Below are positions 5,517-30,985 of a DNA stretch of 43,278 bases, piece by piece; position 1 is the stretch's first letter, and each line of letters starts with the position of its first letter. The notes under the pieces are model-generated. The model was given only the letters and a program-made list of their open reading frames with translations. It searched no databases and was not told the DNA's origin. The translations under genes and the position numbers were made by a program. Source of the stretch: Bordetella parapertussis (GTDB lineage Bacteria > Pseudomonadota > Gammaproteobacteria > Burkholderiales > Burkholderiaceae_E); assembly GCA_945872335.1 (NCBI GenBank), contig CAMBZS010000004.1:1-43278 (forward strand). The letters run 5' to 3'.

Positions 5517-5535
5517 GAGTGTCTTAATGCAGGCG

Positions 5536-6834
5536 TCAGAACAGGATCTGGGGAAGCAGGGTAGCCATTTGGGGAAACGCAACCAGCAGCACCACGAAGA
5601 CCAGCATGATCGCGAAGAAGGGGAACGCAGCCCGCGATACAAAGCCAAGATCACGACCCGACATCATCTGCATGATGAAGAGATTGAGCCCCACCGGAGG
5701 GGTGACCATGGACATTTCCACCATCAGAACCATGAAAACACCGAACCAGATCAGGTCGATGCCAGCTGCCTGTACCGTGGGCAGCAGGAGCGAACTCGCC
5801 AGCACCACGATCGATACGCCATCGAGGAAGCAGCCCAGAATCGCAAACAGTATTGTGAGTGTCAGCAGCAGGCCATTGGGCGAGAGTGCAAACGAATCGA
5901 TGAACTTCGCGATTTCATGTGGCAGGCCGGTGAAGTCGACTGCTGCCGACAGAAACATCGACCCCATGATGATGAAAGCGATCATGCAGGAGGTGCGGAC
6001 GGCCTCGCGAATGCTCTCAATAAACGTGGTCCAGCTGAGTGTGCCGGAGACGGCTGAAAGAATGAGCGCACCGGCCACGCCCAGCGCGGCCGATTCTGTG
6101 GGCGTGGCAATGCCTGTATAGATGGAGCCGATCACCAGCGCGATGAGCAGCACCACCGGAATCAGATGTCGGCTGCTTCTCAGCTTCTCGATAAATTTTG
6201 AGCCGGGTTCGGCGGGCGGCATCTGACTTGAATGGGTGAGCGCCCAGACCATCAGATAGCCCATGAAGAGCAGCATCAGCACAAGGCCCGGGACGATGCC
6301 CGCGGCAAACAGCTTGGCAATGGAGACCTCGGCCGACACGCCATACACGATGAACGTGATCGACGGCGGGATCATGATGCCCAGCGTGCCGGCGCTGGTG
6401 AGGGCGCCCATGCTGACGCTTGCCGGGTAACCGCGCCGCTGGAGTTCGGGCAACGAGATGCGTCCGATGGTGGCCATGGTGGCGGCAGACGATCCGCAGG
6501 CGGCCGCGAAGATGCCGCAGCCCAGTACGTTCACATGCAGCAATCGGCCGGGCAGCCAGCCCAGCCAGGGTGCGAGTCCGCGAAACATTTCGTCGCTGAG
6601 GCGGCTGCGAAAAAGGATTTCGCCCATCCAGATGAAAACCGGCAGCGCAGTGAGGGTCCAGCTTGCGCTGCTGCCCCAGATGGTGGTGGCCATGATGCTG
6701 CCAGCCGGTGAAGTGGTGCCAGCGAAAAAAACGAAGAGACCGGTTCCCAGGAGCGCCACGGCGATCCAAAGCCCGCTGCCCAGCATCAGGAGCAGAACCA
6801 GCAGTACGAGCGTGGCGAAATGCCCCGGATCCAT
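5536..6834 (-). CDS. TRAP transporter large permease (DctM/SiaM family)
   Basis: This 432-residue, roughly twelve-helix membrane protein is the transport subunit of a tripartite ATP-independent periplasmic transporter. Hydrophobic helices run throughout. The typical TRAP-M segment GCGIFAAACGSSAATMATIG lies near residues 105-125. ALTSAGTLGIMIPPSITFIVYG and the C-terminal MVEMSMVTPPVGLNLFIMQ are the paired family motifs around the substrate and sodium sites. It starts five bases after the dctQ stop. The next gene is a PLP lyase 19 bases downstream, which suggests that the imported compound is the lyase substrate or a precursor. The family is certain; the transported compound is not known. Confidence 0.95.
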   Translation of the reverse strand: MDPGHFATLVLLVLLLMLGSGLWIAVALLGTGLFVFFAGTTSPAGSIMATTIWGSSASWTLTALPVFIWMGEILFRSRLSDEMFRGLAPWLGWLPGRLLHVNVLGCGIFAAACGSSAATMATIGRISLPELQRRGYPASVSMGALTSAGTLGIMIPPSITFIVYGVSAEVSIAKLFAAGIVPGLVLMLLFMGYLMVWALTHSSQMPPAEPGSKFIEKLRSSRHLIPVVLLIALVIGSIYTGIATPTESAALGVAGALILSAVSGTLSWTTFIESIREAVRTSCMIAFIIMGSMFLSAAVDFTGLPHEIAKFIDSFALSPNGLLLTLTILFAILGCFLDGVSIVVLASSLLLPTVQAAGIDLIWFGVFMVLMVEMSMVTPPVGLNLFIMQMMSGRDLGFVSRAAFPFFAIMLVFVVLLVAFPQMATLLPQILF

Positions 6835-6839
6835 GGCGC

Positions 6840-7352
6840 TCAGACCGCAGACGGCTGATCGCCGCCGCGTGGGTACAGCGTGGTTTCATCGATCAGATGA
6901 CACACCAGGCTGTCGACCAGGCTGACCCAGAGCGCCAGCACCCCCAGCGCCATCCAGAGTTGCGGGATCCAGAGCGGAATGGCGACTACGCCCTGTCCCA
7001 TTTCATTGAACTGCCAGGAGTCCCACACCATGGCGCAGGTCCACCAGCAGAAGTAACCGCTGATAAGGCTTGCGATCGCCAGACAGCCGCGCTCGACCCA
7101 GCGTTGCGCTGCCGGGGGTAATCGGTCAAGGAGGAGCGCCACCCGGATATGGCCGCCGGTATTGAGCGTGTAGGCGAGCCCGAGGAACGACGATGCGGCC
7201 ATGGAATAGCCGGCGATTTCAGCCGTCCAGGACACCACCACGCCGGCCGCACGTGCGCCAATCTGAAGCAGGACGCAGGCCACGATACCCACCAGCGCGA
7301 GGCCGGACAGGACACCACACCCGGTGTAAAAACCGTTCAGCAGTCTGCGCAT
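6840..7352 (-). CDS. TRAP transporter small permease (DctQ family)
   Basis: This 170-residue protein has about four membrane helices. The first is near residues 12-35. The following segment WTAEIAGYSMAASSFLGLAYTLNTGGHIRV matches the DctQ pattern of a Trp-Thr-Glu helix, a helix with Gly/Ala-rich start, and a Gly-His-Ile-Arg-Val loop. DctQ partners DctM in the inner membrane. The gene lies between the receptor gene (24-base gap) and dctM (5-base gap), in the usual P-Q-M order, so all three should be made from one transcript. Confidence 0.92.
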   Translation of the reverse strand: MRRLLNGFYTGCGVLSGLALVGIVACVLLQIGARAAGVVVSWTAEIAGYSMAASSFLGLAYTLNTGGHIRVALLLDRLPPAAQRWVERGCLAIASLISGYFCWWTCAMVWDSWQFNEMGQGVVAIPLWIPQLWMALGVLALWVSLVDSLVCHLIDETTLYPRGGDQPSAV

Positions 7353-7376
7353 GAGGCAACGACCTGCCAGACCGAT

Positions 7377-8375
7377 TTAACGCCGGCCCGCCAGGTACTC
7401 CTTGAGGACGGCTGCGCCGTCGGGTCCGGCGCGCTTTTCCCAATCCTGGGCGAGCCGCTCGCCGACCTTGCGCAGGTCGGCCACGAAGGCGGCGTCCGGG
7501 GTGAGAATGGTGACGCCCTCCTTGACCAGGCGCGCCTTGGTTTCCTCGCCCTCGCGCTTGCTCCAGTCCCAGCCGCGCTTTTCTGCGTTGGCCGATGCCG
7601 TGAGGATGATTTGCTGTAGCTCTGCGGGCAGACCCTTGAAGGTGGCCGTGTTGATGATGATGGTGTCCTTGGAGTGGGCAGCCTGAAAGTCGATGAAGAA
7701 CTTCGCGTAATCCCAGGACTGGGTGGCAACCGCGGTGGTGGAGGACGTGAGCGTGGCATCAACGATCCCGACCGTAAATGCCTGACTCAGTTCCGAGGCT
7801 TGCAGCACAGTGGGCGTGGCGCCCACGAGCTCGGCGAAGCGCGAGGCGGCCGGGCCCCAGCTGCGGTGCTTCATGCCTTTGAGGTCTTCAATTTTCGTGA
7901 TGGCCTTCTTGCTTACCATGCCCATGCCGGGGAAGGGTACGGTGTAGAGGATGGTGATGCCCTGTGCGTTCAGGCGTTTGTCGAGGTAGGGTTTGGAAAG
8001 TTTCCAGAGTCGGGCGGCCGATTCATAGCCGCTGTCCAGGAACAGGATGCCGTCGATATCGAAGAACGCATATTCATTGCCGTAGGCGGGCAGGTTGGTC
8101 TCCGCGATCGGCACCTGTCCGGTTTGAACGGCTCGCTTGATTTCGGGCAGCTTGAAGAGCGAGCCGTTCGAATGCACTGTGATGTCGATTCGGCCGTTGG
8201 ACGCACTCTTTACTTCGTCGGCGAACATCCGCGTGTTCTTGGTGTGGAAGCTGCCGTCTGCGTAAGGGGTGGGCATGTTCCACTTGTACACCTGCTGGGC
8301 GCAGGCCGGACCCGCGGCCAGCGCGATCGCGCCAGCCAGGACATGAAACAGCGAGCAGCGTTTGACGGGGTTCAT
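7377..8375 (-). CDS. TRAP transporter periplasmic receptor (DctP family)
   Basis: This 332-residue periplasmic binding protein has a signal peptide ending near ACA-QQV. The mature part begins with YKWNMPTPYADGSFHT. KMHRSWGP-like text near the middle (seen as GMKHRSWGPAASRF) contains the arginine that in this family usually grips the ligand carboxylate. The start at 8375 is supported by GGAGG eight bases upstream (minus strand). The segment SELSQAFTVGIVDATLTSSTTAVATQSWDY is the later family motif, with aspartate and threonine instead of the common DG-x-E-N. This unusual pocket suggests a ligand other than C4-dicarboxylates. The gene is preceded by a cupin gene 29 bases upstream and followed by dctQ and dctM. 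Confidence 0.92.
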   Translation of the reverse strand: MNPVKRCSLFHVLAGAIALAAGPACAQQVYKWNMPTPYADGSFHTKNTRMFADEVKSASNGRIDITVHSNGSLFKLPEIKRAVQTGQVPIAETNLPAYGNEYAFFDIDGILFLDSGYESAARLWKLSKPYLDKRLNAQGITILYTVPFPGMGMVSKKAITKIEDLKGMKHRSWGPAASRFAELVGATPTVLQASELSQAFTVGIVDATLTSSTTAVATQSWDYAKFFIDFQAAHSKDTIIINTATFKGLPAELQQIILTASANAEKRGWDWSKREGEETKARLVKEGVTILTPDAAFVADLRKVGERLAQDWEKRAGPDGAAVLKEYLAGRR

Positions 8376-8404
8376 CGGGAAGGCCTCCGCAGTTGAAGTG
8401 AGGT

Positions 8405-8812
8405 TCAGAGCTCGTTGAACCAGACCACTTCGTCAAAGAATTTGTTCGGCTTGGTAAAGAAGGAAATCGACAAGCAGCCATTCGGTGCATGCGCAATGTG
8501 CGTATTGCCACCCGGACGCCACACAAAATTGCCTGCAGTGGCCGATCCTTGCTCGTCATCGAGGCTGCCTTCCAGGATGTAGGTCTGCTCGATTTCGGTA
8601 TGGGTGTGCAGCGGAATGGTGGAGCCCGGCTCCATTTTGGAGAGCACGGTCAGCATGCCGTTTTCGTCCTGGAAAAGAATTTTCACTTGAACGCCGGGAA
8701 ACTTGGAGGGCTTCCAGGGCATGTTCAGTACGTCGACGAAGGTTGAGCGCGGCGTGGCGATGATTTCTTCGTGAGTGGGGCGGCGCTTCTGTGAAACCAG
8801 GGCTTCAGCCAT
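8405..8812 (-). CDS. Small cupin-domain protein
   Basis: This 135-residue single-domain cupin shows both motifs. The first is GSTIPLHTHTEIEQTYILEG, with His, His and Glu as metal ligands. The second is GNFVWRPGGNTHIAHAPNG, with the third His. The start at 8812 has GGGAG six bases upstream on the minus strand. It is the first gene of the operon that continues into the TRAP transporter and the PLP lyase. Small cupins in such operons may be dioxygenases, isomerases, lyases or plain binding proteins; the sequence alone does not decide. The conserved metal ligands argue that it binds a metal. Confidence 0.88.
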   Translation of the reverse strand: MAEALVSQKRRPTHEEIIATPRSTFVDVLNMPWKPSKFPGVQVKILFQDENGMLTVLSKMEPGSTIPLHTHTEIEQTYILEGSLDDEQGSATAGNFVWRPGGNTHIAHAPNGCLSISFFTKPNKFFDEVVWFNEL

Positions 8813-8879
8813 GACTGTCTCCCAGGGAGGGTGGATGATGCTGCACTGTACACACCGATCGCGCGGCGCTGCAACGTCT

Positions 8880-8909
8880 GTGATTCGATTCCTGAAAGAA
8901 ACGATTCAC
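8880..8909. promoter_or_regulatory. Long inverted repeat in divergent promoter region (likely operator)
   Basis: The arms GTGATTCGATTC (8880-8891) and GAAACGATTCAC (8898-8909) are inverted repeats matching at 10 of 12 positions, separated by CTGAAA. The repeat sits in the 193-base gap between the minus-strand cupin/TRAP operon and the plus-strand acyl-CoA synthetase operon. A TATAGT that could be a -10 box lies just beyond it at 8932-8937. The size and symmetry suit a dimeric repressor or activator controlling one or both operons. No regulator gene is in the window, so the protein that binds it is unknown. Confidence 0.55.
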
Positions 8910-9005
8910 GCGGTGCCGCGTGCGCTCCGGCTATAGTCAATGTCCGGGGCAAACGGAACGCTCGCGAAGCGTGGTCCGCGATCAACCCTGACTGGAGATG
9001 GTTGA

Positions 9006-10664
9006 GTGATGCGAAGCGGACACTCCGACGCCCGGTTTCCTGCAACACGAACCGAGCTGGTGTATGGCGACCGGCTGGTGCGGTGTTTCAAGGATCGGCC
9101 CCGTTCGCTCTTCGGGATGCTTGAACAGGCGGTCAGGCGTTCGCCGCAGGGCGTGGCCCTGATATGCGGCAGCCAGCGACTCACGTACAGCGAACTCGAT
9201 CATGAGGTCTCGAAGGCGGCCCGGGCGTTGCAGGCTTCAGGGATTGTTTGCGGCGATCGGGTTGCGCTCCTTCTGGGGAACCGGATCGAGTTTGTGGTGC
9301 TGTTGTTCGCTGCCGCACGCGTTGGCGCCATCGTCGTGCCGCTCAGCACCCGGGAGGTCAGGCCTGGCATCGCCTATGCACTTGGCCAATGTGGCGCGCG
9401 TCTGCTGGTGCACGAGCGCGACTTGTCCGACCAGGTGCCCGACGACAGCGAGCTGCCAGCGCCGCTTGCGCGGGTCTGGGTGGGCGATGCGCCGGAGGGC
9501 GGCGATGTCACCCACCCGGCGGCCTGGCTGGGCTGGCTGAACGCAGCGGCGAGCGCGCCGCTGGCTGAGCCCGCACTGCCTGCCGAGTTCGACACAGCGG
9601 CCATACTCTATACGTCCGGCACGACGGGTCGACCCAAGGGCGCGATGCTCACCCATCTGGGGCTGGTGCACTCCGCGCTTCATTTCGTTCACGCCATGTC
9701 GCTTGGCCCCCGCGACACCTCGATTGCCACGGTGCCGCTCAGCCATGTCACCGGACTGGTTGCATTGATCTGCACCATGGTGATGGCCGCGGGCAAGCTG
9801 GTGGTGATGCCGTCGTTTCGCGCCTCGGCGTTCATCGAGCTTGCGCAAGCCGAACGCATGACACACACGCTCATGGTGCCTGCGATGTACAAGCTCTGCC
9901 TGATGGCCCCCGAGTTTGAGCAGGCCGATCTGTCGGCATGGCGGGTCGGTGCCTACGGGGGGGCGCCGATGCCGGCGGCAACGATTGCCGAGCTCACCCA
10001 GCGCATGCCGCAACTGATGCTCATGAATTGCTACGGATCGACCGAGACCACGTCCCCCGCCACGCTCATGCCGCCAGGCCAGAACGCAGGGCGGATCGAT
10101 AGTGTCGGCTGCCCTCTGCCGTGCGCCGAGATTCGTGTGATGGACGATTCCGGCCGAGAGTGCGAGGCCGGTGAACTTGGCGAGATCTGGATCGGTGGCC
10201 CCATGGTCATCCCCGGTTACTGGAATCAGCCGGAGGCCACCCGAAGTGCGATCGTGGGCGGTTTCTGGCGCTCGGGGGATCTGGGATGGGTTGATGCCGA
10301 GGGTTACCTGCGGGTGGTCGATCGGATCAAGGACATGATCAATCGGGGCGGCTACAAGGTGTTCACCATCGAGGTCGAGAATGTGCTCTACGAGCACGAG
10401 CAGGTGATTGAGTGCGCGGTGGTGCCAGTGCCGTGTCCGGTCCTGGGTGAGCGCGTGCAGGCGGTGGTGTATGCCCGGGACGGATCTGCGGAATCGGTTC
10501 GGCTGAATCGCGAACTGGGCGCACACTGCGCCGCACGATTGGCAGACTACAAGCGGCCGGAGCGTTTCGTCGTGGTGGATCAGCCGTTGCCGCGCAACGC
10601 CAACGGCAAACTTCTCAAACGCCAGATTCGGGAGACATTGCGCCATGAGCAGCAGCCGGTATGA
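9006..10664 (+). CDS. Acyl-CoA synthetase (class I adenylate-forming enzyme)
   Basis: This 552-residue AMP-forming ligase activates a carboxylic acid to its CoA thioester. The phosphate loop is YTSGTTGRPKG (202-212). The A5 motif is NCYGSTETTS (341-350), and RSGDLGWVDAEGYLRVVDR (around 422-440) carries the ATP-binding aspartate. INRGGYKVFTIEVENVL follows, and the C-terminal catalytic lysine is Lys535 in RNANGKLLKRQ. GGAG at 8994-8997 fits either the GTG at 9006 or the adjacent ATG at 9009. It overlaps the MaoC-like gene by 20 bases, and an SDR follows, so the three act together. The fatty, aromatic or short-chain acid preference cannot be read from sequence. Confidence 0.93.
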   Translation: MMRSGHSDARFPATRTELVYGDRLVRCFKDRPRSLFGMLEQAVRRSPQGVALICGSQRLTYSELDHEVSKAARALQASGIVCGDRVALLLGNRIEFVVLLFAAARVGAIVVPLSTREVRPGIAYALGQCGARLLVHERDLSDQVPDDSELPAPLARVWVGDAPEGGDVTHPAAWLGWLNAAASAPLAEPALPAEFDTAAILYTSGTTGRPKGAMLTHLGLVHSALHFVHAMSLGPRDTSIATVPLSHVTGLVALICTMVMAAGKLVVMPSFRASAFIELAQAERMTHTLMVPAMYKLCLMAPEFEQADLSAWRVGAYGGAPMPAATIAELTQRMPQLMLMNCYGSTETTSPATLMPPGQNAGRIDSVGCPLPCAEIRVMDDSGRECEAGELGEIWIGGPMVIPGYWNQPEATRSAIVGGFWRSGDLGWVDAEGYLRVVDRIKDMINRGGYKVFTIEVENVLYEHEQVIECAVVPVPCPVLGERVQAVVYARDGSAESVRLNRELGAHCAARLADYKRPERFVVVDQPLPRNANGKLLKRQIRETLRHEQQPV

Positions 10665-19220: not shown

Positions 19221-20498
19221 ATGGTTCCGGCAATCTTCACCATTTTCCTCGCGCTGCTTGCGCTCAGCGTACCGGTTGCGGTGGCGATCGGTCTCGCCTC
19301 CATTGCCGGCATTCAATTTTTCTCCAACATGCCGATGCTGGAGTCGGCCCGGCAACTCTTCACCTCGATCGACAAGTTCCCGCTGGTGGCGATTCCCTTC
19401 TTCATCCTGTCGGGAAATCTCATGGAGGCGGGCGGCATTTCCGAGCGCCTGGTGAATCTGGCGCGAGCCCTGGTGGGTGGCGTGCAGGGCGGGCTTGCGA
19501 TGAGTTGCGTGCTCACCTGCATGATCTTCGCGGCGGTGTCGGGGTCCAGTGTGGCCACCACCTTTGCCATTGGCGCGATCCTCATTCCGGCGATGGTTCG
19601 CTATGGCTACCCGGTTCAGCGCGCGGCGGCGCTTCAGGCCTCGTCGGCTGAACTCGGCGTGATCATTCCCCCTTCCATCCCGATGATTCTCTACGGGGTA
19701 TCTGCCGAGGTGTCGGTGGGCGAGATGTTCATCGCCGGGTTCGGTCCGGGACTTCTGATCGGTGGCGCGCTGATCCTGTTCATCTTCGTCTGGTGCAAGG
19801 TCACCGGACATGGCAAGCGTGACGGCGAGGGCCGGTTGGAACTGGCGGTGGCTTTCAGGCAGGCGAGTCTCGCGCTCCTCATGCCGGTGGTGGTGCTGGG
19901 CGGTATTTACGGCGGCGTATTCACCCCTACCGAGGCGTCAGTCACTGCGGTGTTTTACGCGCTGATCGTCGGCATGTTCGTCTATCGAAAAATCGGCTGG
20001 CAGGATCTGGTGCGCGCGCTCAAGAAAACGGTGGTGTCCACCACGGTGATCATGCTGATCATCGCGACCGCAGGCCTGTTCGCGTTCCTCATCACGCGCG
20101 CGGGCGTGCCCGCTGCAGTCGGCAACTGGGTCGCGGCAAATTTTGATGGCCCGATTGCCTATCTGATCGGGGTGAATGCGTTCCTGTTCGTGATCGGCAT
20201 GTTCATCGAGACCGGTGCTGCGATTGTGGTGCTCGCGCCGATCCTGGCCCCGGTCGCCATTCAGTTCGGGATTGATCCCGTGCACTTCGGCATCATCATG
20301 GTGGTGAACCTGGCGCTTGGCATGATCACGCCGCCGTTCGGTGTGAACCTGTTTGCGGCCTGTACGGTCGCGAAGATCTCGTACGACGAGATCATCCCGC
20401 CTATCATGCCGTACGTGGCGGTGGTGGTGGCCTGCCTGGCGGTGATCACGTTCGTGCCCGAACTGAGTCTGTGGCTGCGCGATCTGGTGTATCGCTAG
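19221..20498 (+). CDS. TRAP transporter large permease (DctM family)
   Basis: This 425-residue membrane protein is the transport channel of the second TRAP system. AGGAG lies upstream of its ATG. Diagnostic segments are PFFILSGNLMEAGGISERL, CMIFAAVSGSSVATTFAIG, AELGVIIPPSIPMILYG and the C-terminal NLALGMITPPFGVNLFAA. It ends the operon and converges with the czcA-like gene after 25 bases. Together with 17620-18612 and 18699-19193 it makes a complete P-Q-M transporter, driven by an ion gradient as in other TRAP systems. Confidence 0.95.
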   Translation: MVPAIFTIFLALLALSVPVAVAIGLASIAGIQFFSNMPMLESARQLFTSIDKFPLVAIPFFILSGNLMEAGGISERLVNLARALVGGVQGGLAMSCVLTCMIFAAVSGSSVATTFAIGAILIPAMVRYGYPVQRAAALQASSAELGVIIPPSIPMILYGVSAEVSVGEMFIAGFGPGLLIGGALILFIFVWCKVTGHGKRDGEGRLELAVAFRQASLALLMPVVVLGGIYGGVFTPTEASVTAVFYALIVGMFVYRKIGWQDLVRALKKTVVSTTVIMLIIATAGLFAFLITRAGVPAAVGNWVAANFDGPIAYLIGVNAFLFVIGMFIETGAAIVVLAPILAPVAIQFGIDPVHFGIIMVVNLALGMITPPFGVNLFAACTVAKISYDEIIPPIMPYVAVVVACLAVITFVPELSLWLRDLVYR

Positions 20499-20523
20499 CG
20501 GGCAGCTGCCACACGAAGCGATC

Positions 20524-23500
20524 TCACGCAGCCGGCACTTTGGCGAGGGGCGTTGCCCCTTCCGATCGACCGAACCACATTGCATAAAGCACGGGCAGCA
20601 CGAGCAGAGTGAGTAGTGTGGCCGAGGCCAGTCCGCCAATCACCACGATGGCGAGCGGACGCTGGGTCTCAGCGCCAATCGCTGTGCTGACTGCCATGGG
20701 CAACAGCCCCAGCGCAGCGAGAAAGGCCGTCATCAGCACCGTTCGTAGCCGCTGCATTGCGCCTTCGGTGATTGCCTCGATCAGACTCATTCCGCTTGCG
20801 CGCAGCTGCTGAAACACCGAAAGCATGACCACGCCGTTCAGCACTGCCTGCCCGGACAGTGCAATGAATCCAATGGCCGCCGAGACCGACAAGGGAATGT
20901 TGAAGAGGGTCAACGCGACGAAGCCTCCGATGAGGGCAAGCGGCACATTGACCAGAATCAGCAGCGCAGCTTTCAGCGATTTGAATGCATCAAAAAGCAG
21001 CACGAAGATCAGCGCGAGCGAAAGTGGCACCACCACGCTCAGCCGTTTCATTGCGCGTTCCTGGTTTTCGAATTCACCGGACCAGCTGAGTACGTAGCCG
21101 CGCGGAATCTGAACATGGCGATCCACCCGTTGCTTCATGTCGGCAACGACTGACCCCATGTCGCGCCCGCGGATGAAAATGCCGATGGCCATGGTGCGGC
21201 GACCGGCCTCCCGCGCAATATTCATCGCGCCCCCGGCTTCCCGCAGGGTTGCAACCGCCGACAGTGCCACGTAGCCGCCATCGGGGGTAGGGATGGGAAT
21301 ATTGGCGAGCTGCGATAGCGATCGCTGGCTTGGCGCCAAGCGAACCGCGAGTCCGAACCGGCGCTCGCCCTCCCAGATGCTGGTGACCGGCCGCCCGGCG
21401 AGTGCGGCTTCGATCACATCCTGAATGTCCGCTACGTTGAGTCCGTAGCGACCCACGCGGTCCCGGTCGATTTCGATCAGCAACTGAGGCAGTTCGCCTA
21501 GCCGATCGATTTCCGCCCGATACACCCCCTGAACCTGCTTCACCTCGTGCTCGATCGCCTGCATGGCGCTGCGAAGCACGGCCAGATCGTCGCCGGCAAG
21601 CTTGATCACGATCTGGCCGTCGATCTGCGAGATGGACTCGAGCACGTTGTCTCGAATCGGCTGCGAGAAAGTGGGCTCCATGCCTGGAATGGATTGCACC
21701 GCACGTTCCAGTTCTTCAAGGAGCCGCTCGCGCGTGAGGCCTCGCCGCCATTCCTCGGGTGGCTTCAGGTCAACAAACATTTCCGCCATCGCGATGGTTT
21801 TCGGATCGGTGCCGTCCTCGGGCTTTCCCGCCTTTGAAACAACGGTGCGAACTTCCGGAATGCGGCGCATTGCCGATCTAAGCTGATGGAGTACCGCCTG
21901 CGCTTCCTCGATGGATACGCTGGCCGGCAGGCGCACGTTGACCCAGAGCGTGCCCTCGTTCAGTTCGGGGAGAAATTCCGAGCCGAGGCGGGTGGCAACA
22001 CCCATCGCCGCCGCAAACGCAACCAGCGCCGCGATCACGACCGTTTTTCGCCAGGCAAGGGCCCAGCCAAGAACGGGGCGATAGATGCGCTTTGAGAAAG
22101 TGACCAGCCGATTGTCGTGGTGCGGTAGCCGTCGCCTTAGCATTTGTCGGGCGAGCAAGGGCAATAATGTGAGCGAAAGAATCAACGAGGTAATGAGCGC
22201 CGCCACCACCGACAACGCCATGGGCTGGAAGATTCGGCCTTCATGCCGCTCCAAAGCGAAGATCGGAATATGGGCTGCGATGATGATGAGCATCGAGAAG
22301 AGTGTGGGCCGGCCGACTTCGTTAGCGGCTGATTCAATCAGCTTGGTGCGCTCGCGCTCGCTCATGCCTTCGCCGCGCAAGGAGAGCCGATACATGATGT
22401 TTTCAATCACGATGACCGCGCCATCAACGATGATGCCGAAATCAAGCGCGCCCAGGCTCAGCAGGTTCGCGGGAATTCCCATGATCCGCAGGCCCAGGAA
22501 CGTGGCAAGGAGCGATAGCGGAATGATCATGACCACCAGCAGGCTGGCCCGCAGGTTTGACAGAAACAGATAGAGCACCAGCGCGACCAGGATGGCGCCC
22601 TCCAGCAGGTTGGTGAACACCGAGCGTAGCGTGCGCTCCATCAGCCATGTTCGGTCATAGAACGGTGCGATCTGTACGCCGGGAGGCAGTCCGCGTGCGT
22701 TCAGGTCGGCGATGCGTTGCTTCACCCGGCGCAGCACCTCGGAGGGATTTTCACCGCGGCGCATGATGACAATCCCGGTGACCACGTCGTTATCGTCGTC
22801 CTGCCCGACCGTGCCCAGGCGCGGTACTTCGCCAATTCGAACCTGTGCCACGTCAGAGACCAGAATGGGTGTGCTGTTTCGTGTGGCAATGGCGATCCGG
22901 CCAATGTCATCGGTGCTACGCAGGAGCCCGATGCCGCGAATGGTGAACTGTTGCCCGCCCTGCGAGACATAGCTCCCGCCAGCATTGGCGTTGCCGCGGC
23001 CCAGCGCCTCGAGCAGTTGCTGGTAGGTGAGCTTGTAGGCGCGCATTCGGTCGGGGTCGGGTTGAACCTCGTATTGTTTGATGGCGCCGCCCATCGCGAT
23101 GACATCGGCAACCCCAGGTACCTGTCGCAATGAGCGTTCAACCACCCAGTCTTCGATTGAACGCAACTCAATCGGGCTGTAGCCCTCGCCCCGCAGACGG
23201 TAGCGAAGTACCTCGCCGACCGGCGTGGCGTTTGGCGCGATGGTGGCTTCCACCCCCGCGGGCAGCGGCACCCCTCGCAGACGTTCATTGACTTGCTGAC
23301 GAATGATGTTGACGTTGGCGTGGTCGTCGTAGGTGATGACGTTGAACGACAGACCGAACTGCGTGTGGGAGAACAGCCGGATGGAATTGGGTAGCCCCGA
23401 AAGCGCGACCTCGATCGGGAGGGTGACCTGCTTTTCAACCTCCTCGGCTGCGGCGCCGGGGTAAAGCGCGATCACCGTGACCTGTGTATCGGTGACGTCT

Positions 23501-23616
23501 GGAAAGGCCTCAACCGGGAGTTGTCGGAAAGCGACGATGCCCGCAATGACAAAGAGCAGCGTACCGATCAGAACCAGAAGCGGCTGCTTCAGCGAATAAC
23601 GGATCAGCCGTTTCAT
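20524..23616 (-). CDS. czcA: Heavy-metal efflux RND transporter (CzcA/CusA family)
   Basis: This 1030-residue inner-membrane proton-driven pump belongs to the heavy-metal-efflux RND class. The N-terminal helix is followed by FPDVTDTQV and PGAAAEEVEKQVTLPIE, typical of CzcA. The membrane motif LDFGIIVDGAVIVIEN (391-406) contains Asp392, Asp398 and Glu405, matching the DFG-x-x-x-DG-x-x-x-x-x-EN signature of divalent-cation (Zn/Co/Cd) pumps. Twelve membrane helices and two large periplasmic loops are visible. Its start overlaps the czcB stop as ATGA. The metal cannot be named with certainty. Because the outer-membrane gene of the operon is broken, function depends on another outer-membrane channel in the cell. 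Confidence 0.93.
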   Translation of the reverse strand: MKRLIRYSLKQPLLVLIGTLLFVIAGIVAFRQLPVEAFPDVTDTQVTVIALYPGAAAEEVEKQVTLPIEVALSGLPNSIRLFSHTQFGLSFNVITYDDHANVNIIRQQVNERLRGVPLPAGVEATIAPNATPVGEVLRYRLRGEGYSPIELRSIEDWVVERSLRQVPGVADVIAMGGAIKQYEVQPDPDRMRAYKLTYQQLLEALGRGNANAGGSYVSQGGQQFTIRGIGLLRSTDDIGRIAIATRNSTPILVSDVAQVRIGEVPRLGTVGQDDDNDVVTGIVIMRRGENPSEVLRRVKQRIADLNARGLPPGVQIAPFYDRTWLMERTLRSVFTNLLEGAILVALVLYLFLSNLRASLLVVMIIPLSLLATFLGLRIMGIPANLLSLGALDFGIIVDGAVIVIENIMYRLSLRGEGMSERERTKLIESAANEVGRPTLFSMLIIIAAHIPIFALERHEGRIFQPMALSVVAALITSLILSLTLLPLLARQMLRRRLPHHDNRLVTFSKRIYRPVLGWALAWRKTVVIAALVAFAAAMGVATRLGSEFLPELNEGTLWVNVRLPASVSIEEAQAVLHQLRSAMRRIPEVRTVVSKAGKPEDGTDPKTIAMAEMFVDLKPPEEWRRGLTRERLLEELERAVQSIPGMEPTFSQPIRDNVLESISQIDGQIVIKLAGDDLAVLRSAMQAIEHEVKQVQGVYRAEIDRLGELPQLLIEIDRDRVGRYGLNVADIQDVIEAALAGRPVTSIWEGERRFGLAVRLAPSQRSLSQLANIPIPTPDGGYVALSAVATLREAGGAMNIAREAGRRTMAIGIFIRGRDMGSVVADMKQRVDRHVQIPRGYVLSWSGEFENQERAMKRLSVVVPLSLALIFVLLFDAFKSLKAALLILVNVPLALIGGFVALTLFNIPLSVSAAIGFIALSGQAVLNGVVMLSVFQQLRASGMSLIEAITEGAMQRLRTVLMTAFLAALGLLPMAVSTAIGAETQRPLAIVVIGGLASATLLTLLVLPVLYAMWFGRSEGATPLAKVPAA

Positions 23617-24800
23617 CGAGCCGCACCTCGACCCGATGTCGAGGTGCGCTCGTTGGCGTCGGCTGCGCCACGATAGATTCTGGCGAGCAGCAGCGTATTT
23701 TCGACCAGCACCTGCTCGCCGGTGCGAAGCGCGTCGCGGATCAGCACCCGCTCTGACCCGAGATAGGTGATCTCGGTTTGCCGGGGTTCGAATTCGCCCG
23801 GGTTGGGGGACACGTAGATCCAGTGCGTGTTGTCCTGGCTCACTACGGCGGAGGCTGGCACGACTGCACCCTGTCCAGGCGACTGGCTGACCCGCACCCG
23901 GCCCAGCATCTCCACCTTGAGCAAGCGGGCGGTGTTGTCGACCCGGGCTCTGACCTTGAGGGTTCGCGTGATGGGGTCGATGGCGTCACCCACTGCCATG
24001 ATCTCGGCGGGAAAGCTGCGATCAGGGTAGGCGTTGGCGATGAATTCAACGCGGCGACCTGGCGCCACCTGCGACAGATCGCCTTCGCGAACGTCAACCT
24101 GCAGCCAGAGCCGGGTGGGGTCGGTCAGCACAAACAGTGCAGTCGAGCCGGGTCCGAATTGCTCGGGACGCAGTTCCTGGCCGGGGTTGAGATTGCGTTC
24201 AACCACCACGCCGGTAATGCCCGCTGTGATCGCCAGACGCTGATTGATGGCCTCTGACCCGCCATACAGCTGCGTTCGGGCCTGCGTGCGGTCGAGTTCG
24301 GTTTGCGCGCGCAGGGCATCCGTTTCTGCCTGCTCGAGCTCCTTTCGCGCGGCGATGCCTATCGCGTGCAGATCGCGAACCCGGTCGAGCTGGCGATTTG
24401 CCTGGACGAGGTCTGCGCGGGCCCGGCTGGCATCGGCCTGCGCGACGCCAAATTCCGGAGAGGCCAGCTCGGCCAGAACCTGACCTACTGCGACGCGGCC
24501 TCCGACGTCGGCGCGAATCGCAGAGATTCTCCCAGCAAGTGCCGGATAAATGCGTTGCGTGCGGTCTTCGTCCCAGATCACCCGCGCGGGGATGTCGACG
24601 TTGACCGGGCGTGCCGGCTCGGCGGCCACGGTTTTCAGCGCACCGAGTTGCGGATGCCCGGTCGGAAAGCGCAGCGTGCTGCCCGTGAGGATAGGCCGTG
24701 GGGGCGGGGGTTGACCCGAGGGGGCATCCTGGCAGCCAGCCAGCAGGAGGGCGACAAGGGTCGCAGCAGGAATCAGGCAGATCAGGCGCTTCGAAACCAC
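23613..24800 (-). CDS. czcB: RND efflux periplasmic adaptor lipoprotein (CzcB-like)
   Basis: This 395-residue membrane-fusion protein links the RND pump to an outer-membrane channel. I chose GTG at 24800: it starts a lipoprotein signal (KRLICLIPAATLVALLLAGC) with Cys23 as the lipid-modified residue, 26 bases after the czcC remnant stop. The longer frame upstream would overlap czcC. The protein shows lipoyl/barrel-sandwich halves (GRISAIRADVGGRVAVGQVLAEL and GITGVVVERNLNPGQEL) flanking a coiled-coil hairpin (about residues 120-190), then beta-barrel and membrane-proximal domains. It overlaps czcA. No His-rich metal-binding N-terminus was seen. Confidence 0.9.
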   Translation of the reverse strand: MVSKRLICLIPAATLVALLLAGCQDAPSGQPPPPRPILTGSTLRFPTGHPQLGALKTVAAEPARPVNVDIPARVIWDEDRTQRIYPALAGRISAIRADVGGRVAVGQVLAELASPEFGVAQADASRARADLVQANRQLDRVRDLHAIGIAARKELEQAETDALRAQTELDRTQARTQLYGGSEAINQRLAITAGITGVVVERNLNPGQELRPEQFGPGSTALFVLTDPTRLWLQVDVREGDLSQVAPGRRVEFIANAYPDRSFPAEIMAVGDAIDPITRTLKVRARVDNTARLLKVEMLGRVRVSQSPGQGAVVPASAVVSQDNTHWIYVSPNPGEFEPRQTEITYLGSERVLIRDALRTGEQVLVENTLLLARIYRGAADANERTSTSGRGAAR

Positions 24801-24826
24801 GTGGCGTCCAGTGTGTGTGTCCAGCG

Positions 24827-25132
24827 TTATGGCACGACGCTCAGCGAACGCAAACGCCATTCGGTATCGGCGCGTGCTGCATCGAGCCGTGCCTGGACCG
24901 CGTCGAGTCGTACGGCCCTGAAGGTGCGACGTGCGTCGAGCAGATCGGTGAGTGAGGTGGCGCCCCGTGCGTAGGCTGCCTCGGCCCGCTCCAGAACTTC
25001 ACGGGAGCGCTCAAGAATGCGTGTCTCGATGCTGTCCAAGCGCGCAGCCGTGGCGATGCGCCGGAGGTGGAGCGACGTCAACTCGGACTCGGCGGCCACT
25101 GTTGTCTGGCTGAGTGACGCTTCGGCCCTCTG
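24827..25132 (-). pseudogene. czcC: Truncated outer-membrane efflux channel gene (czcC/TolC family), 3' fragment
   Basis: Only about the last 100 residues of an outer-membrane factor remain; the family normally has around 400 or more. The visible part runs from roughly QRAEASLSQTT through a long helix to LERAEAAYARGATSLTDLLD, the conserved C-terminal repeat motif of these channels, and ends ...TEWRLRSLSVVP. Upstream of about 25132 the similarity stops abruptly and the antisense of a histidine kinase begins. The signal peptide, beta-barrel strands and the first coiled-coil repeat are missing, so no working channel can be made. An in-frame ATG at 25195 lies within the antisense of the kinase and is not a genuine start. 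Confidence 0.8.
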
Positions 25133-25137
25133 TAAAA

Positions 25138-25532
25138 CCGATGCGCCCGTCGAGGTGCTCGGCAACGCGGCGCTGCTCGAGGGCGTGGTCAACAATCTGC
25201 TCGATAACGCCTGTCGCCACGCGTTTGGTTCGTCTCCCGGTGGGCAGCCTCAGTTGACGGTGAGCGTTGAAGCGAAAGAGGGTGGCGCTGGCACGGGAGC
25301 CAGGGTCACGCTGTCGGTGATTGACAACGGCATCGGTTTACCGGAAACGCGGCGTGCCGACATGATGCAACGTTGGCGCCGAACCTCGCGCGAGCCCATG
25401 CTGCGCGAAGGCGCGGGTCTGGGCCTTGCCATCGTGAGCGAATATGTGCGGCTTCTGGGCGCGCGACTGTCGCTTCACGCCGGGCCAGATGGCACTGGTC
25501 TGTCGGTAAGCATTGAACTCGACCGCGCCTGA
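25138..25532 (+). pseudogene. Truncated sensor histidine kinase gene, 3' fragment (HATPase domain)
   Basis: From about position 25140 the plus strand encodes the ATP-binding domain of a sensor kinase. The N box is VVNNLLDNACRHAF, the G1 box is DNGIGLP and the G2 box is GAGLGLAIVSEYVRLLGA. The sensor, membrane and HisKA (phosphoacceptor His) domains are absent. The frame is open further left to an ATG at 25017, but that stretch is the antisense of the czcC fragment. The style (MQRWRRTSRE ... EGAGLGLAIV) is that of TctE/QseC-like kinases. No response regulator gene lies nearby. It is most likely the remains of the kinase once paired with the metal-efflux operon; this is inferred from position. 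Confidence 0.8.
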
Positions 25533-25553
25533 GGGCGCATGCGGGCCGGAGGA

Positions 25554-26696
25554 TCAGGCAATTCTGCCGGTGCGCGCGAGCGACACTGCGGCCGCCACGA
25601 TCACCAGCACACATCCGGCGAGCGCAAAAACCGCGGTGACCTCTGTGAGCTGGCGCCGCTCGAGCGTAAGGCGCGAGCTGAGCTCTTTGTAGATTCGGCG
25701 CAGGTCGAGAGCGTCGTTCGCACGGAAATAGTCGCCCAGTGTGATGTCGGCGATCTTCTTCAGTGCCTCCTCATCGAGTCGCACCCGCATCGACATGCCT
25801 TGAGCGTTGAGCGTGATGCCTTCTGGCGTACCCACCCCGACGGTGAAGATGCGAACGCCTTGCTGCGCGGCGAGTTCGGCCATCTTGAGCGTATCGGGCC
25901 CGGTATTGCCCTGGCCGTCGGTGAGCAGGACGATTGCCGCACTGCGGTTGGATCCTGGCTCCGCCGGGGGGCTGGTTTTGGGTGGCTCCTGGCTTCCTGA
26001 GCGGGCGCCCGACGCTGTGCCGCCCGCCGTGCCGGCGCTGTCGCGTCCCGGCGCTCCGCGCAGCGGCGTGCCACCAGCGCCCGGGCGAGGTCCGTCGCCC
26101 GAGGCCTCGTTGAGAATTTTCTGTACGTCGATGCCTGCGCCCGGCAACAACTCGGCGAGGCTCACCAGGATGCCGCTCCCGATGGCCGAGCCACGCTGAA
26201 GCTGCAGTGAGTCGATCGCCTGGTAGAGATCGTCCCGCTCGGTCGTGGGAGACTGGACGACCGCCGCGGTGCCGGAGATGGCGACCACACCGACCCGCAG
26301 CCGCGATGGCATGCCATCTATGAAACTGCGGGCAGCCGCCTGAGCGGCTTCGATACGACTGGGTTTGACGTCGGCAGCGCGCATGCTGCCTGACGTGTCG
26401 ATCGCCAGGATGACCGACTCGACCGCCGTGGGCATGAGCAGCATGGCCCGGGGGCGAGCCACGGCGATGAGGAGCAGCGCGAGCCCGGCCAGCGCGATCA
26501 AGCCCGGACCATAGCGACCCAGGAAACCCCAAAGGCCCGAGTGCGTAAGCGCCTGAGGGACCATGCCTGGGTAGCGGGAATGGGCGCGCGAACGGGTGAA
26601 ACGAAGCAGCAGCATGGCGAGCGCTGCCAGCGGCACGATTGCGAGCAGCCAGAGAAGTATCGGCCACAGAAAGCTGAGGGTCCGCAGATCAATCAT
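25554..26696 (-). CDS. VWA-domain membrane protein (BatA-like)
   Basis: This 380-residue protein has two N-terminal membrane helices (about 12-31 and 63-80), a von Willebrand factor A domain and a C-terminal helix (about 350-375). The metal-dependent adhesion site is intact: AIDTSGSM (Asp100, Ser102, Ser104). A glycine/proline/serine-rich insert of about 50 residues (199-252) interrupts the VWA domain before AAIVLLTDGQGNTG. It overlaps the DUF58 gene by ATGA. VWA proteins next to MoxR and DUF58 are thought to form a membrane complex with the MoxR ATPase; the cellular role in this group is mostly unknown. It converges with the kinase fragment after 21 bases. Confidence 0.9.
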   Translation of the reverse strand: MIDLRTLSFLWPILLWLLAIVPLAALAMLLLRFTRSRAHSRYPGMVPQALTHSGLWGFLGRYGPGLIALAGLALLLIAVARPRAMLLMPTAVESVILAIDTSGSMRAADVKPSRIEAAQAAARSFIDGMPSRLRVGVVAISGTAAVVQSPTTERDDLYQAIDSLQLQRGSAIGSGILVSLAELLPGAGIDVQKILNEASGDGPRPGAGGTPLRGAPGRDSAGTAGGTASGARSGSQEPPKTSPPAEPGSNRSAAIVLLTDGQGNTGPDTLKMAELAAQQGVRIFTVGVGTPEGITLNAQGMSMRVRLDEEALKKIADITLGDYFRANDALDLRRIYKELSSRLTLERRQLTEVTAVFALAGCVLVIVAAAVSLARTGRIA

Positions 26697-27745
26697 GGCA
26701 CGCGGTCCCGTCCGGCCGGACGCGATGCGGCGGCCGCACCGAACGCGCCGGCCGACAGCTGCGAGCGGCGCTTTCGCAGTTGCAGGAAGCGGAGCAGCGA
26801 TTCATCGAGCGGCTCATCGGTGGCAAGTTCCAGGCAATCCACGCCGCTGCGCGCCAGTGCTTCGCGGAGCTGCGTTTCACGCCCGCTCGCGGCCTGGGCG
26901 AAGCGCTCGCGAAAGCGGGGGTCGCTGCTGTCCACCCAAAGCAACTCGCCGGTTTCGGCGTCCTGCAGGGCGATCATCCCGAGGTCGGGCAGCTCGACTT
27001 CAAGCGGATCGAAGAGCCGCACCGCCACCACGTCGTGGCGTCGGGCGAGTTGCGACAGCGCCTGATCCCAACCGGGCAGGCTGATGAAATCGGACACGAC
27101 AAACACCACCGACCGACGCTTGATTGCTGCCAGCGCATCAGAGAGCAGCGCGCCGAGTTCGGTGGCATCGTGCGGCGTGCCGCCGGTTTGCGCAGCATCA
27201 ATGCTTCGCATCAGATGGAGTACATGCCGACGCCCCGACCGCGCTTGTACGAAAGCGTTGTCGTGATGACTGCCCGCGTGGATCAGCGCACCGATCCGGT
27301 TGCCGCGGCGTGTGAGCAGCCTAGCCACTACGGCGCTGAATTCGAGTGCAAGCGTGCGCTTGGAAATCTGCCCGGATCCGAAGTCGACCGAGCCCGAAAG
27401 ATCAAGCAGCAGCCACGCTGCCACCTCGCGGTCTTCCTGATGCTCGCGCACATGGGGAACCTGCAACCGCGCTGTGACGTTCCAGTCGATGTGGCGCACA
27501 TCATCGTGTGGCATGTATTCGCGCAGATCGGCCAGGTCAAAGCCGCTGCCTCGGAAGAGCGTGCGGTAATCGCCCTGCAGAATGCCGTCGAGCCGGCGCA
27601 CGACTGTCCACTCCAGCTTCTTCAGCAGCCGCTCGGGATCGGTTCTGACCGTTTGCAGAGACGGCCCGCCCGCAGCCGCCAAGGCCCCGGTCGCGTTCGA
27701 TTCAGAGCCTGGGTCGGGCGCGCGCTTGCGGAACCAGCCAAACAT
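26693..27745 (-). CDS. DUF58 domain protein
   Basis: This 350-residue soluble protein has the DUF58 signature: FRGSGFDLADLREYMPHDD followed by VRHIDWNVTAR (about residues 65-95), then a VWA-like fold with LLLDLSGSVDFGSG and SVVFVVSDFISLPGW. Start 27745 (MFGWFRKRA) is preceded by GGAAAG at a suitable distance and lies 28 bases after the moxR stop; a longer start at 27799 would overlap moxR. DUF58 proteins almost always neighbour MoxR ATPases, as here. They are presumed partners in complex assembly or maturation, but no reaction is known. Confidence 0.9.
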   Translation of the reverse strand: MFGWFRKRAPDPGSESNATGALAAAGGPSLQTVRTDPERLLKKLEWTVVRRLDGILQGDYRTLFRGSGFDLADLREYMPHDDVRHIDWNVTARLQVPHVREHQEDREVAAWLLLDLSGSVDFGSGQISKRTLALEFSAVVARLLTRRGNRIGALIHAGSHHDNAFVQARSGRRHVLHLMRSIDAAQTGGTPHDATELGALLSDALAAIKRRSVVFVVSDFISLPGWDQALSQLARRHDVVAVRLFDPLEVELPDLGMIALQDAETGELLWVDSSDPRFRERFAQAASGRETQLREALARSGVDCLELATDEPLDESLLRFLQLRKRRSQLSAGAFGAAAASRPAGRDRVP

Positions 27746-27773
27746 GGGAGGGCGCTTTCCGAAGCCGGCCGGA

Positions 27774-28823
27774 TCAGGCCGACTCTCCCAGTCGGACATG
27801 GGTGGAGAGCGGCGTGTCGGGCGCAGGGATGGCTCTCAGCAGCTTGCCGATCAGTTGATCGGGGGAGAGGTTCTCGGAGAGCGCCTCGTAGCTCAGCACC
27901 AGGCGGTGACGAAGCACATCGGCCACCAGGTCGATCACATCGGCAGGCAGCACGTAGCTGCGTCCCCGCAGCAGGGCGAGGGCGCGGGCGCCTTCAATCA
28001 TGCTGATCGTGGCACGTGGGCTGGCCCCGAAGCCGATGTAGCGCGCGAGCTCCGGCAGACCACAAGCTGCAGGGTTGCGGGTGGCAGCCACGATTTTCAC
28101 TGCAAACTGCACCAGCGCCGGATCGACATAGACGCGCCGGCATTCGGCCTGCAGCGTGGCGAGCTCCTCCGTGGTGGCCACCGGCGACACCTCAATCGCC
28201 GGACCGGTGACGCGCTCAACGATGACGAACTCTTCCTCTTCGGAGGGGTAGCCGACCAGCACTTTCATCATGAAGCGGTCGACCTGGGCCTCGGGCAGCG
28301 GGTAGGTGCCCTCGGTTTCGATCGGATTCTGTGTGGCCATCACAAGGAAGGGGTTCGGCAACCGATGGGTTTCGCCAGCGATGGTGACCTGGCGTTCCTG
28401 CATCACTTCGAGGAGTGCACTCTGCACCTTCGCGGGCGCGCGATTGATTTCATCGGCGAGCAGGAGGTTGGTGAAGACCGGCCCCAATGCAGTGGAGAAC
28501 TCGCTGGTTTTCTGGTTGAAGACGCGCGTTCCGACCAGATCGGCGGGCAGCAGATCGGGCGTGAACTGGATGCGCTTGAAGCTGCCGCGCAGTGTTCGCG
28601 CGAGCGTGTTCACGGTGAGCGTTTTAGCGAGGCCGGGCACACCCTCAACCAGCAGATGACCTCGGGCCAGCATGGCCACCAGCACGCGCTCCAGGAAGGC
28701 ATCCTGTCCCACGACAACGCGTTTGACCTCATAGAGCACCTGCTCCATTCGGGCGGCGACTTCATTGCGCAGCGGGGCGGTGCCCGGCCGGTTCCAGGCG
28801 GGGTTCGATTCCTGGGCTTGCAT
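27774..28823 (-). CDS. moxR: MoxR-family AAA+ ATPase
   Basis: This 349-residue AAA+ ATPase has Walker A in LVEGVPGLAKTLTVNTLA, Walker B in LLLADEINRAPAKVQSALLEVM and sensor 1 in LVMATQNPIETEGTYPLPEAQ, then the AAA lid. The start at 28823 has AGGAAG nine bases upstream on the minus strand. MoxR proteins act as chaperone-like ATPases helping assemble or activate metal enzymes and envelope complexes with VWA partners. The operon order is S1C protease, moxR, DUF58, VWA, which suggests a proteolysis and remodelling module in the envelope. Confidence 0.94.
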   Translation of the reverse strand: MQAQESNPAWNRPGTAPLRNEVAARMEQVLYEVKRVVVGQDAFLERVLVAMLARGHLLVEGVPGLAKTLTVNTLARTLRGSFKRIQFTPDLLPADLVGTRVFNQKTSEFSTALGPVFTNLLLADEINRAPAKVQSALLEVMQERQVTIAGETHRLPNPFLVMATQNPIETEGTYPLPEAQVDRFMMKVLVGYPSEEEEFVIVERVTGPAIEVSPVATTEELATLQAECRRVYVDPALVQFAVKIVAATRNPAACGLPELARYIGFGASPRATISMIEGARALALLRGRSYVLPADVIDLVADVLRHRLVLSYEALSENLSPDQLIGKLLRAIPAPDTPLSTHVRLGESA

Positions 28824-29893: not shown

Positions 29894-30985
29894 TTGAATC
29901 CAAAAGCCGTGCGATTCATCTGGCCCGATTTTCTCTGGGGTCTGCTGGCGCTGCCGCTCCTGGTGGCGCTCTATGTATGGCTCCTTCGCCGCCGACGGCG
30001 AAACGCTGTGCGCTACGCGAGCCTGACCCTGATCCGACAGGCGATTGGGCCGGGTCAGCGCTGGCGTCGTCACGTGCCGCCCGCGCTGCTCTTGGTCAGC
30101 ATTGCGGCCGGTTTGGTTGCGGCCGCGCGTCCGGCAGCCAATGTGGTGTTGCCCGCCGATTACATGACGATCGTGCTGGCGATCGATGTGTCGCGCAGCA
30201 TGCTCGCCAACGACGTCGAGCCCAACCGCATTCACGCAGCCCAGGTAGCGGCGCGCGAATTCATCCGTGAGCTTCCCGACGGTATCCGGGTGGGGATTGT
30301 CACCTTCGCCGGGTCGGCCCAGGTCGTGCAGGGTGTCACTGACCGGAAGGAAGACCTGCTTGCGGCCATCGACCGGTTCCAGCTGCAGCGCGCCACCGCC
30401 ACCGGTAGCGGCCTGCTGGTGGCACTTGCCACGCTCATGCCCGAAGCGGGTATCGATCTGGAGTCACTGCTCTATGGCCAGGGATTCGGCCGAGACGGCG
30501 GCCGCGCCAAGGGCGCGATTGAAAGCCGAGCCGCGCCACCCCCTCCCAAGGCTGCGCCCAAGGCGCCGGCTGCGGCGGTCGCCCCAGGCACTTACACCGG
30601 TGGGGCCATTGTGCTGCTGTCCGATGGCCGGCGAACCAACGGTCCCGACCCGGTGATGGCTGCGCGCAAAGCGGCCGAGCTGGGGGTCCGGGTCTACACC
30701 GTGGGATTTGGCACCCCGAATGGCTCCATTCCTGGCTATGAGGGCTGGTCGTTTTACGTACGATTGGATGAAGAGGCGCTGAAAGCGGTTGCGAAGGTCA
30801 CCGAGGCCGAATATTTCTATGCGGGGTCTGCGGTCGATCTGCGCAAGGTCTATCAGCACCTCACTTCGCGCTTTGCGCTCGAACGCCGCGACACGGAAAT
30901 CGGCGCGTTGTTCGCGGCCGCTTCTGCCTTGCTGGGGTTGCTCGCCTTCGGGTTGTCCGCGATCTGGTTTCGGCGCTCGGTCTGA
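29894..30985 (+). CDS. VWA-domain membrane protein (BatA-like), second paralogue
   Basis: This 363-residue paralogue of the VWA protein at 25554-26696 shares its layout. It has N-terminal helices (about 12-30 and 62-78), a VWA domain and a C-terminal helix. The metal site reads AIDVSRSM (Asp98, Ser100, Ser102) and the following LANDVEPNRIHAAQVAAREFI closely tracks the sister's AADVKPSRIEAAQAAARSFI. It too carries a low-complexity alanine/proline insert before GAIVLLSDGRRTNGPDP. The start is uncertain: TTG at 29894 keeps the conserved N-terminus, and GTG at 29909 is an alternative. It is transcribed away from the protease/moxR operon. Confidence 0.88.
   Translation: MNPKAVRFIWPDFLWGLLALPLLVALYVWLLRRRRRNAVRYASLTLIRQAIGPGQRWRRHVPPALLLVSIAAGLVAAARPAANVVLPADYMTIVLAIDVSRSMLANDVEPNRIHAAQVAAREFIRELPDGIRVGIVTFAGSAQVVQGVTDRKEDLLAAIDRFQLQRATATGSGLLVALATLMPEAGIDLESLLYGQGFGRDGGRAKGAIESRAAPPPPKAAPKAPAAAVAPGTYTGGAIVLLSDGRRTNGPDPVMAARKAAELGVRVYTVGFGTPNGSIPGYEGWSFYVRLDEEALKAVAKVTEAEYFYAGSAVDLRKVYQHLTSRFALERRDTEIGALFAAASALLGLLAFGLSAIWFRRSV

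Follow-up and report, generated by a model that had tools for sequence, protein, structure and literature searches.

A metal-efflux gene cluster has very probably lost about 2.8 kb in a recent deletion, most simply a single event, which left the adaptor and pump genes czcB and czcA (czcBA) without their regulators and outer-membrane channel and most likely heading to loss. As comparison with relatives shows, the ancestral cluster would have run from vwa1 through a kinase/regulator pair, divergently into czcCBA and on to dctM. The missing segment would have held the 5' part of czcC, the divergent promoter region between the two units, the complete regulator gene and the first two thirds of the kinase gene. 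The window, i.e., the whole stretch of 43,278 nucleotides that was analysed, is contig C4 of draft genome G000, from a lake bacterium (3.88 Mb in 323 contigs, 90.9% complete), and the genus sample consisted of five genomes (G000 to G004), all of which were examined.

Gene remnants at the probable deletion junction

Two C-terminal gene fragments face each other in the window. The first is the 3' remnant of czcC (24827-25135, minus strand), the outer-membrane channel gene, of which 102 codons and the stop are left and about 330 codons at the 5' end are gone. The second is the 3' remnant of a histidine kinase gene (25140-25532, plus strand), in which the ATPase domain is kept and the sensor and HisKA domains are gone. 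The deletion junction, a feature without strand, lies at 25136-25140 and is uncertain by a few bases; a sequence-only reading of this DNA had placed the meeting point of the two fragments at about 25125-25140. The minus-strand open reading frame at 24827-25195 gives a Pfam OEP match that covers only profile positions 91-183 of 187 (E 6.9e-07), and the plus-strand frame at 25017-25532 matches HATPase_c (E 1.8e-18). Compared with czcC of the related genome G004, the remnant has 91% DNA identity to the copy on contig C486, stopping at 25135, and 84.7% to the copy on C272, stopping at 25132. The kinase homology of the window begins at 25137. What remains is residues 330-433 of a 433-residue CzcC and, relative to the kinase of G003, the part from about residue 344 of 501, in keeping with the earlier claim that both genes had lost their 5' parts. 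The window operon holds no intact outer-membrane channel gene, and no intact regulator and kinase lie beside it.

The two remnants are not chance open reading frames, since their dN/dS values against G004 are low and of coding type (0.073 over 102 codons for czcC; 0.133 over 105 codons for the kinase, the latter being a pairwise value that is not assigned to a branch) and since they break off where the genes of relatives run on. Both reading frames are open. A 171-codon open frame (25017-25532, plus strand) passes from antisense czcC across the junction into the kinase ATPase domain; this frame is probably meaningless, though a gene caller could report it.

No long shared sequence was seen at the joint when the window, the G004 czcC and the G003 kinase were compared by eye. 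Direct repeats form 35 families in the G003 locus (L062) and 18 in the G004 C272 locus (L064), which are imperfect and scattered. No pair at both break points was found among the 20 of 35 L062 families shown and the 18 L064 families, a comparison limited by the G004 kinase segment beside the joint, which is unassembled. A hairpin at the junction was ruled out as a deletion signal (z-score -0.66; 44 of 200 shuffles fold equally well or better).

The undeleted cluster in relatives

CzcB and the kinase remnant were each queried against 61 genomes (G000 and 60 relatives), and the best matches of both outside G000 were genomes of the genus. The undeleted order spans one contig in G003 (C173, locus L062), where vwa1 is followed by the kinase (-), the regulator (-), czcC (+), czcB (+) and czcA (+), and the contig ends inside czcA, at codon 898. 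In G004 the kinase is split over two contigs, with residues of about 244-369 unassembled: C272 carries the N-terminal part of the kinase, the regulator, czcC, czcB, czcA and the 3' end of dctM, and the C-terminal part of the kinase is on C155, together with vwa1 and the genes behind it. The segment missing from the window is thus held between the same flanks in both relatives, on one contig in G003 and in pieces with a kinase gap in G004. A second version of czcCBA, closer in sequence to the window than that of C272 (L064), lies on a further G004 contig, C486 (L063), whose end truncates czcC. As C486 and C272 end at the same dctM codon, the two G004 versions of czcCBA look like mixed strains, not a duplication.

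Because czcC and the kinase gene are neighbours in these relatives, a single deletion of about 2.8 kb explains the window. The sequence-only reading had proposed one deletion for the loss of the czcC 5' part, shared promoter, regulator and kinase 5' part, and had suggested an alignment with relatives. The order in G003 and G004, which as far as assembled carry the undeleted cluster with a divergent two-component pair, supports that proposal, and the case named as speaking against it, czcC and kinase in unrelated loci of relatives, does not apply to these genomes. By subtraction, about 2.8 kb of G003 is missing from the window (L062, about 6349 to 9161). The lost part of the kinase is roughly residues 1-343, which in G003 includes the 2CSK_N and HisKA domains. 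Also lost are the entire regulator, the gap between it and czcC, and about the first 330 of the 433 czcC codons.

The G003 regulator finds a 75% match in G004, and its best match in G000, G001 and G002 is a 43-44% paralogue. For czcC, there is no match at E 0.001 in G001 and G002, and G000 has only the remnant and a 28% paralogue. The regulator, the czcC 5' part and the kinase 5' part were not found elsewhere in the 3.88 Mb of G000, an absence that is not absolute at a completeness of 90.9%.

Five genomes outside the genus, picked for matches to both parts of the cluster, were also compared. In four of them (G012, G018, G023 and G026; the G012 cluster is split over two contigs, with the break inside czcC) the two-component pair and the pump operon diverge, and in G010 the pair follows the pump on the same strand. 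In G023, which belongs to another genus of the same family, the regulator/kinase pair is directly divergent from czcB and this locus has no czcC (L067, G023:C67, about 5380-5720). Further relatives were sought among the loci of the 80 out of 150 relatives retained by a contig scan, of which L091-L094 are the four congeners and the others have at most 52% identity. Within the 28 of these 80 loci that were scanned (L091-L118, E 1e-6), no match to kinase, regulator, czcB or czcC was obtained outside the congeners, and six loci gave czcA matches of 25-32% identity; several of the loci are short, and the flank is not always reached. A plasmid location of the cluster was rejected: 3463 plasmid records match CzcB, all with less than 60% identity, so no recent plasmid source is seen. 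Among the publications listed by literature searches, none deals with this locus in its title or the opening of its abstract.

Identity of the regulator and the lost intergenic repeat

The name CzcRS should not be used for the two-component pair, since among NCBIfam models the intact G003 proteins fit TctD (regulator) and QseC (kinase) best, both below their cut-offs, and the heavy-metal cut-offs are missed (TIGR01387, 141.6 bits for the regulator against 279.2; TIGR01386, 104.4 bits for the kinase against 292.55). A repeat, GGTCAG-N5-GGTCAG, is exact between regulator and czcC in both G003 and G012 and in the regulator-czcB gap of G023, and is present with two mismatches in the gap of G004. 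It is a candidate binding site of the regulator. Positions 20000-27000 of the window hold no site at 0 or 1 mismatch and one with two mismatches, at 23887. The segments examined in G010, G018 and G026 have none at 0-2 mismatches, and the repeat is therefore a mark of near relatives only. G023 appears to represent a separate loss of the channel gene at this locus, in which the repeat was kept.

Remaining pump genes and conserved flanks

The periplasmic adaptor gene czcB (23613-24860, minus strand) is open, with an uncertain true start that is probably near 24818-24780. Its product is an RND periplasmic adaptor by TIGR01730 (128.7 bits; cut-off 94.9) and scores 104.6 bits under the narrower CzcB/NccB model TIGR00999, below the cut-off of 319.3. 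The identity of the window czcB is 95% to G004 C486 and 62% to G003. The pump gene czcA (20524-23616, minus strand) is likewise open and encodes a CzcA/CusA-type RND pump of 1030 amino acids, which TIGR00914 places in the CzcA/CusA subfamily of RND permeases (1025.9 bits; cut-off 701.45). At residue 392, CzcA has the stretch DFGIIVDGAVIVIEN, which we take to be tied to Zn/Co/Cd pumps. That czcB and czcA are open and intact, as previously stated from the sequence, is confirmed by these frames and scores.

One conserved flank is vwa1, a VWA-domain gene (25554-26696, minus strand; Pfam VWA) that ends a same-strand run close to czcB. It adjoins the kinase 3' end in G002, G003 and G004, and a scar in G001. 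The two genes upstream of it (26693-28823, minus strand), presumably of DUF58 type and MoxR type, have the same order in all five genus genomes. The other conserved flank is dctM, a TRAP transporter gene (19221-20498, plus strand; Pfam DctM) convergent with czcA, which adjoins czcA in G004 and G002 and a scar in G001; the G003 contig stops short of it. A second VWA-domain gene (29894-30985, plus strand), about 47% identical to vwa1, is also present in all five genus genomes, and the gene between it and the vwa1 side is presumably trypsin-like.

Other deletions of the cluster in the genus

The cluster is undeleted, as far as assembled, in G003 and G004, and G000, G001 and G002 carry three different deletions. 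In G002 (VGHA01000020.1), the last 43 kinase codons are joined to czcA codon 34; czcB, czcC, the regulator and the czcA start are gone, about 4.7 kb by subtraction in G003 coordinates. In G001 (SYIM01000318.1; L092, 10925-11157), vwa1 and dctM end only about 230 bp apart. This interval holds two scars: 150 bases running from the vwa1 end into the kinase end, with a 75% match to the window, and 73 bases with a 75% match to the czcA 3' part. Local alignment scores them at 52.5 and 56.0, whereas 500 shuffles of each, preserving base content only, reach no more than 31 and 35. These larger, different deletions in two sister species indicate that the cluster is dispensable in the genus. The comparison adds two refinements to the sequence-only reading: czcBA moved close behind a same-strand run, and two sister species have other deletions of the cluster.

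A tree rooted on G003 and built from DNA spanning the trypsin-like gene through vwa1 has the form (G003,(G002,(G000,(G001,G004)))), with support of 100 for the G000-G001-G004 group and 70 for G001-G004. Identity is uneven along this region, so recombination is possible. Because the undeleted G004 falls inside the group with support of 100, G002 and G000 lost their segments independently, unless G004 took the cluster back up by transfer. The loss in G001 could have passed through a smaller deletion. The nested deletions of the same cluster in these sister genomes also speak for a window state reached by two or more successive deletions, yet such a course is unlikely: both remnants in the window are undecayed and meet at one joint, and no intermediate of the window state occurs among the five genus genomes. 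The scars of G001 are degraded; the remnants in the window are not.

Age of the probable deletion and selection

Selection was examined by a parsimony count of silent and replacement changes in three genes with one outgroup, ambiguous changes being dropped (3 in czcC, 18 in czcB, 33 in czcA). In the czcC remnant, the window branch carries 7 silent changes and 1 replacement, the other branch 12 and 4 (p 0.63); by our estimate, roughly three replacement changes per silent change would be expected had it been unconstrained since the split. This undecayed state indicates a recent deletion, and an assembly artefact would look equally fresh. For czcA, the counts are 113 silent and 16 replacement on the window branch and 100 and 12 on the other (p 0.84). 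For czcB (23613-24818), they are 29 and 15 on the window branch against 37 and 5 on the G004 branch (Fisher p 0.02, uncorrected, for one of three genes tested), a weak hint of early relaxation after the deletion. The dN/dS of czcA against G004 C486 is 0.036; a value of about 0.04 fits a recent deletion and also a still-working pump, as expected if either holds.

Expression and function of the residual genes

With the promoter region, regulator and kinase gone, czcBA would be unable to answer metal by the old route. The czcC and kinase remnants would be inert, and czcBA most likely yield hardly any metal-responsive pump, or none, and are in the course of being lost. Residual expression, if any, would come by read-through from the same-strand genes ending in vwa1, and any residual export would need a borrowed outer-membrane channel. 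Between the stop of vwa1 and the start of czcB, measured on the same strand, lie about 0.7 kb in the window against about 3.7 kb in G003. When 23500-27000 was scanned, the interval from vwa1 to czcB proved free of minus-strand terminator-like sites; such sites lie on that strand inside vwa1 (26629-26607) and inside the preceding gene (26960-26947), and both strands together have 4 sites against a shuffle mean of 2.0. No promoter-like site was found in 23500-27000, a result that says little because the shuffle mean was 0.2. At most, weak read-through into czcBA appears possible.

Eleven other loci in G000 carry two OEP halves each, one of which, on C124, lies beside an adaptor gene and a pump gene 39% identical to czcA. 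The loss of the dedicated channel may be softened by these loci. The earlier claim that czcBA would have no native channel or regulation holds for the truncated czcC and the absent regulator orthologue, but needs qualification as to what the loss of the channel entails.

It is possible, though distinctly improbable, that czcBA now work as a rewired pump: placed after a transcription unit whose last gene is vwa1, they would be expressed without metal control and would use another outer-membrane channel. The shortened distance to vwa1, the terminator-free interval, the other OEP loci and the strong constraint on czcA all fit such a pump. Furthermore, in Cupriavidus metallidurans AE104, czcBA with czcC deleted kept zinc resistance and efflux, probably via CzcC2, and did not keep cadmium and cobalt resistance, according to the available portion of that report (PMC10127602). 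However, the terminator-like sites in vwa1 and the preceding gene stand against it, the replacement excess in czcB hints at relaxation, and the recent date of the deletion accounts for constraint without function. The state of the sister genomes also speaks for loss, the czcA start being gone in G002 and nearly the entire cluster in G001. The more specific version, in which the deletion turned czcBA into an unregulated zinc exporter with a borrowed channel, as one of several routes by which channel and sensing are lost (compare G023), is more doubtful. Loss of function in progress is the most likely reading.

Finally, the cluster could really be intact and its joint a product of the assembler or of a chimeric library molecule. 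Such an assembly or library chimera would suit a draft of 323 contigs and 90.9% completeness and the undecayed remnants, but it is very unlikely: neither the regulator nor the missing 5' parts of czcC and the kinase were found anywhere in the 3.88 Mb, the joint shares at most a few bases by eye where a graph misjoin needs about 20, and differing deletions of this cluster occur in two further draft genomes, one of which shows degraded scars.

Comparison with known systems and significance

The undeleted cluster resembles the czcRS-czcCBA system of Pseudomonas, a pump/adaptor/channel operon for Zn/Cd/Co efflux under two-component control, in which, as far as described in the available part of the source, the regulator/kinase pair and the operon share an intergenic region and the regulator activates both units (PMC10393844). 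Unlike that system, the window retains only the 3' ends of czcC and of the kinase gene and has neither regulator nor intergenic region, and the intact G003 pair scores best against TctD and QseC, below the heavy-metal cut-offs. The recessive metal-resistance determinants of C. metallidurans are likewise partly broken RND efflux operons that have been retained; in the portion of the report available, it is the central RND or adaptor gene that is broken and the adaptor, channel and two-component genes that are kept, which is the reverse of the window (PMC10127602). The AE104 czcBA construct is alike in having adaptor and pump without their own channel (PMC10127602), whereas the deletion in the window is natural and also took the promoter region and regulator. 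Overlapping large deletions that recur in related genomes, as here, have been described in C. metallidurans mutants; in the accessible text these are cultured mutants with deletions in genomic islands or near transposon-associated genes (PMC13192273), unlike the genus deletions, which affect one chromosomal cluster in different species.

The window is a new example of ordinary, repeated gene erosion, and an unusually well documented one. For annotators, an entry of "czcCBA present" would be wrong for G000 despite the presence of czcA and czcB. If czcBA still work, they would constitute a pump freed from metal control by deletion. For the freshwater genus as a whole, the five sister genomes show the dismantling of a metal-resistance operon in undeleted, partly deleted and almost erased states.
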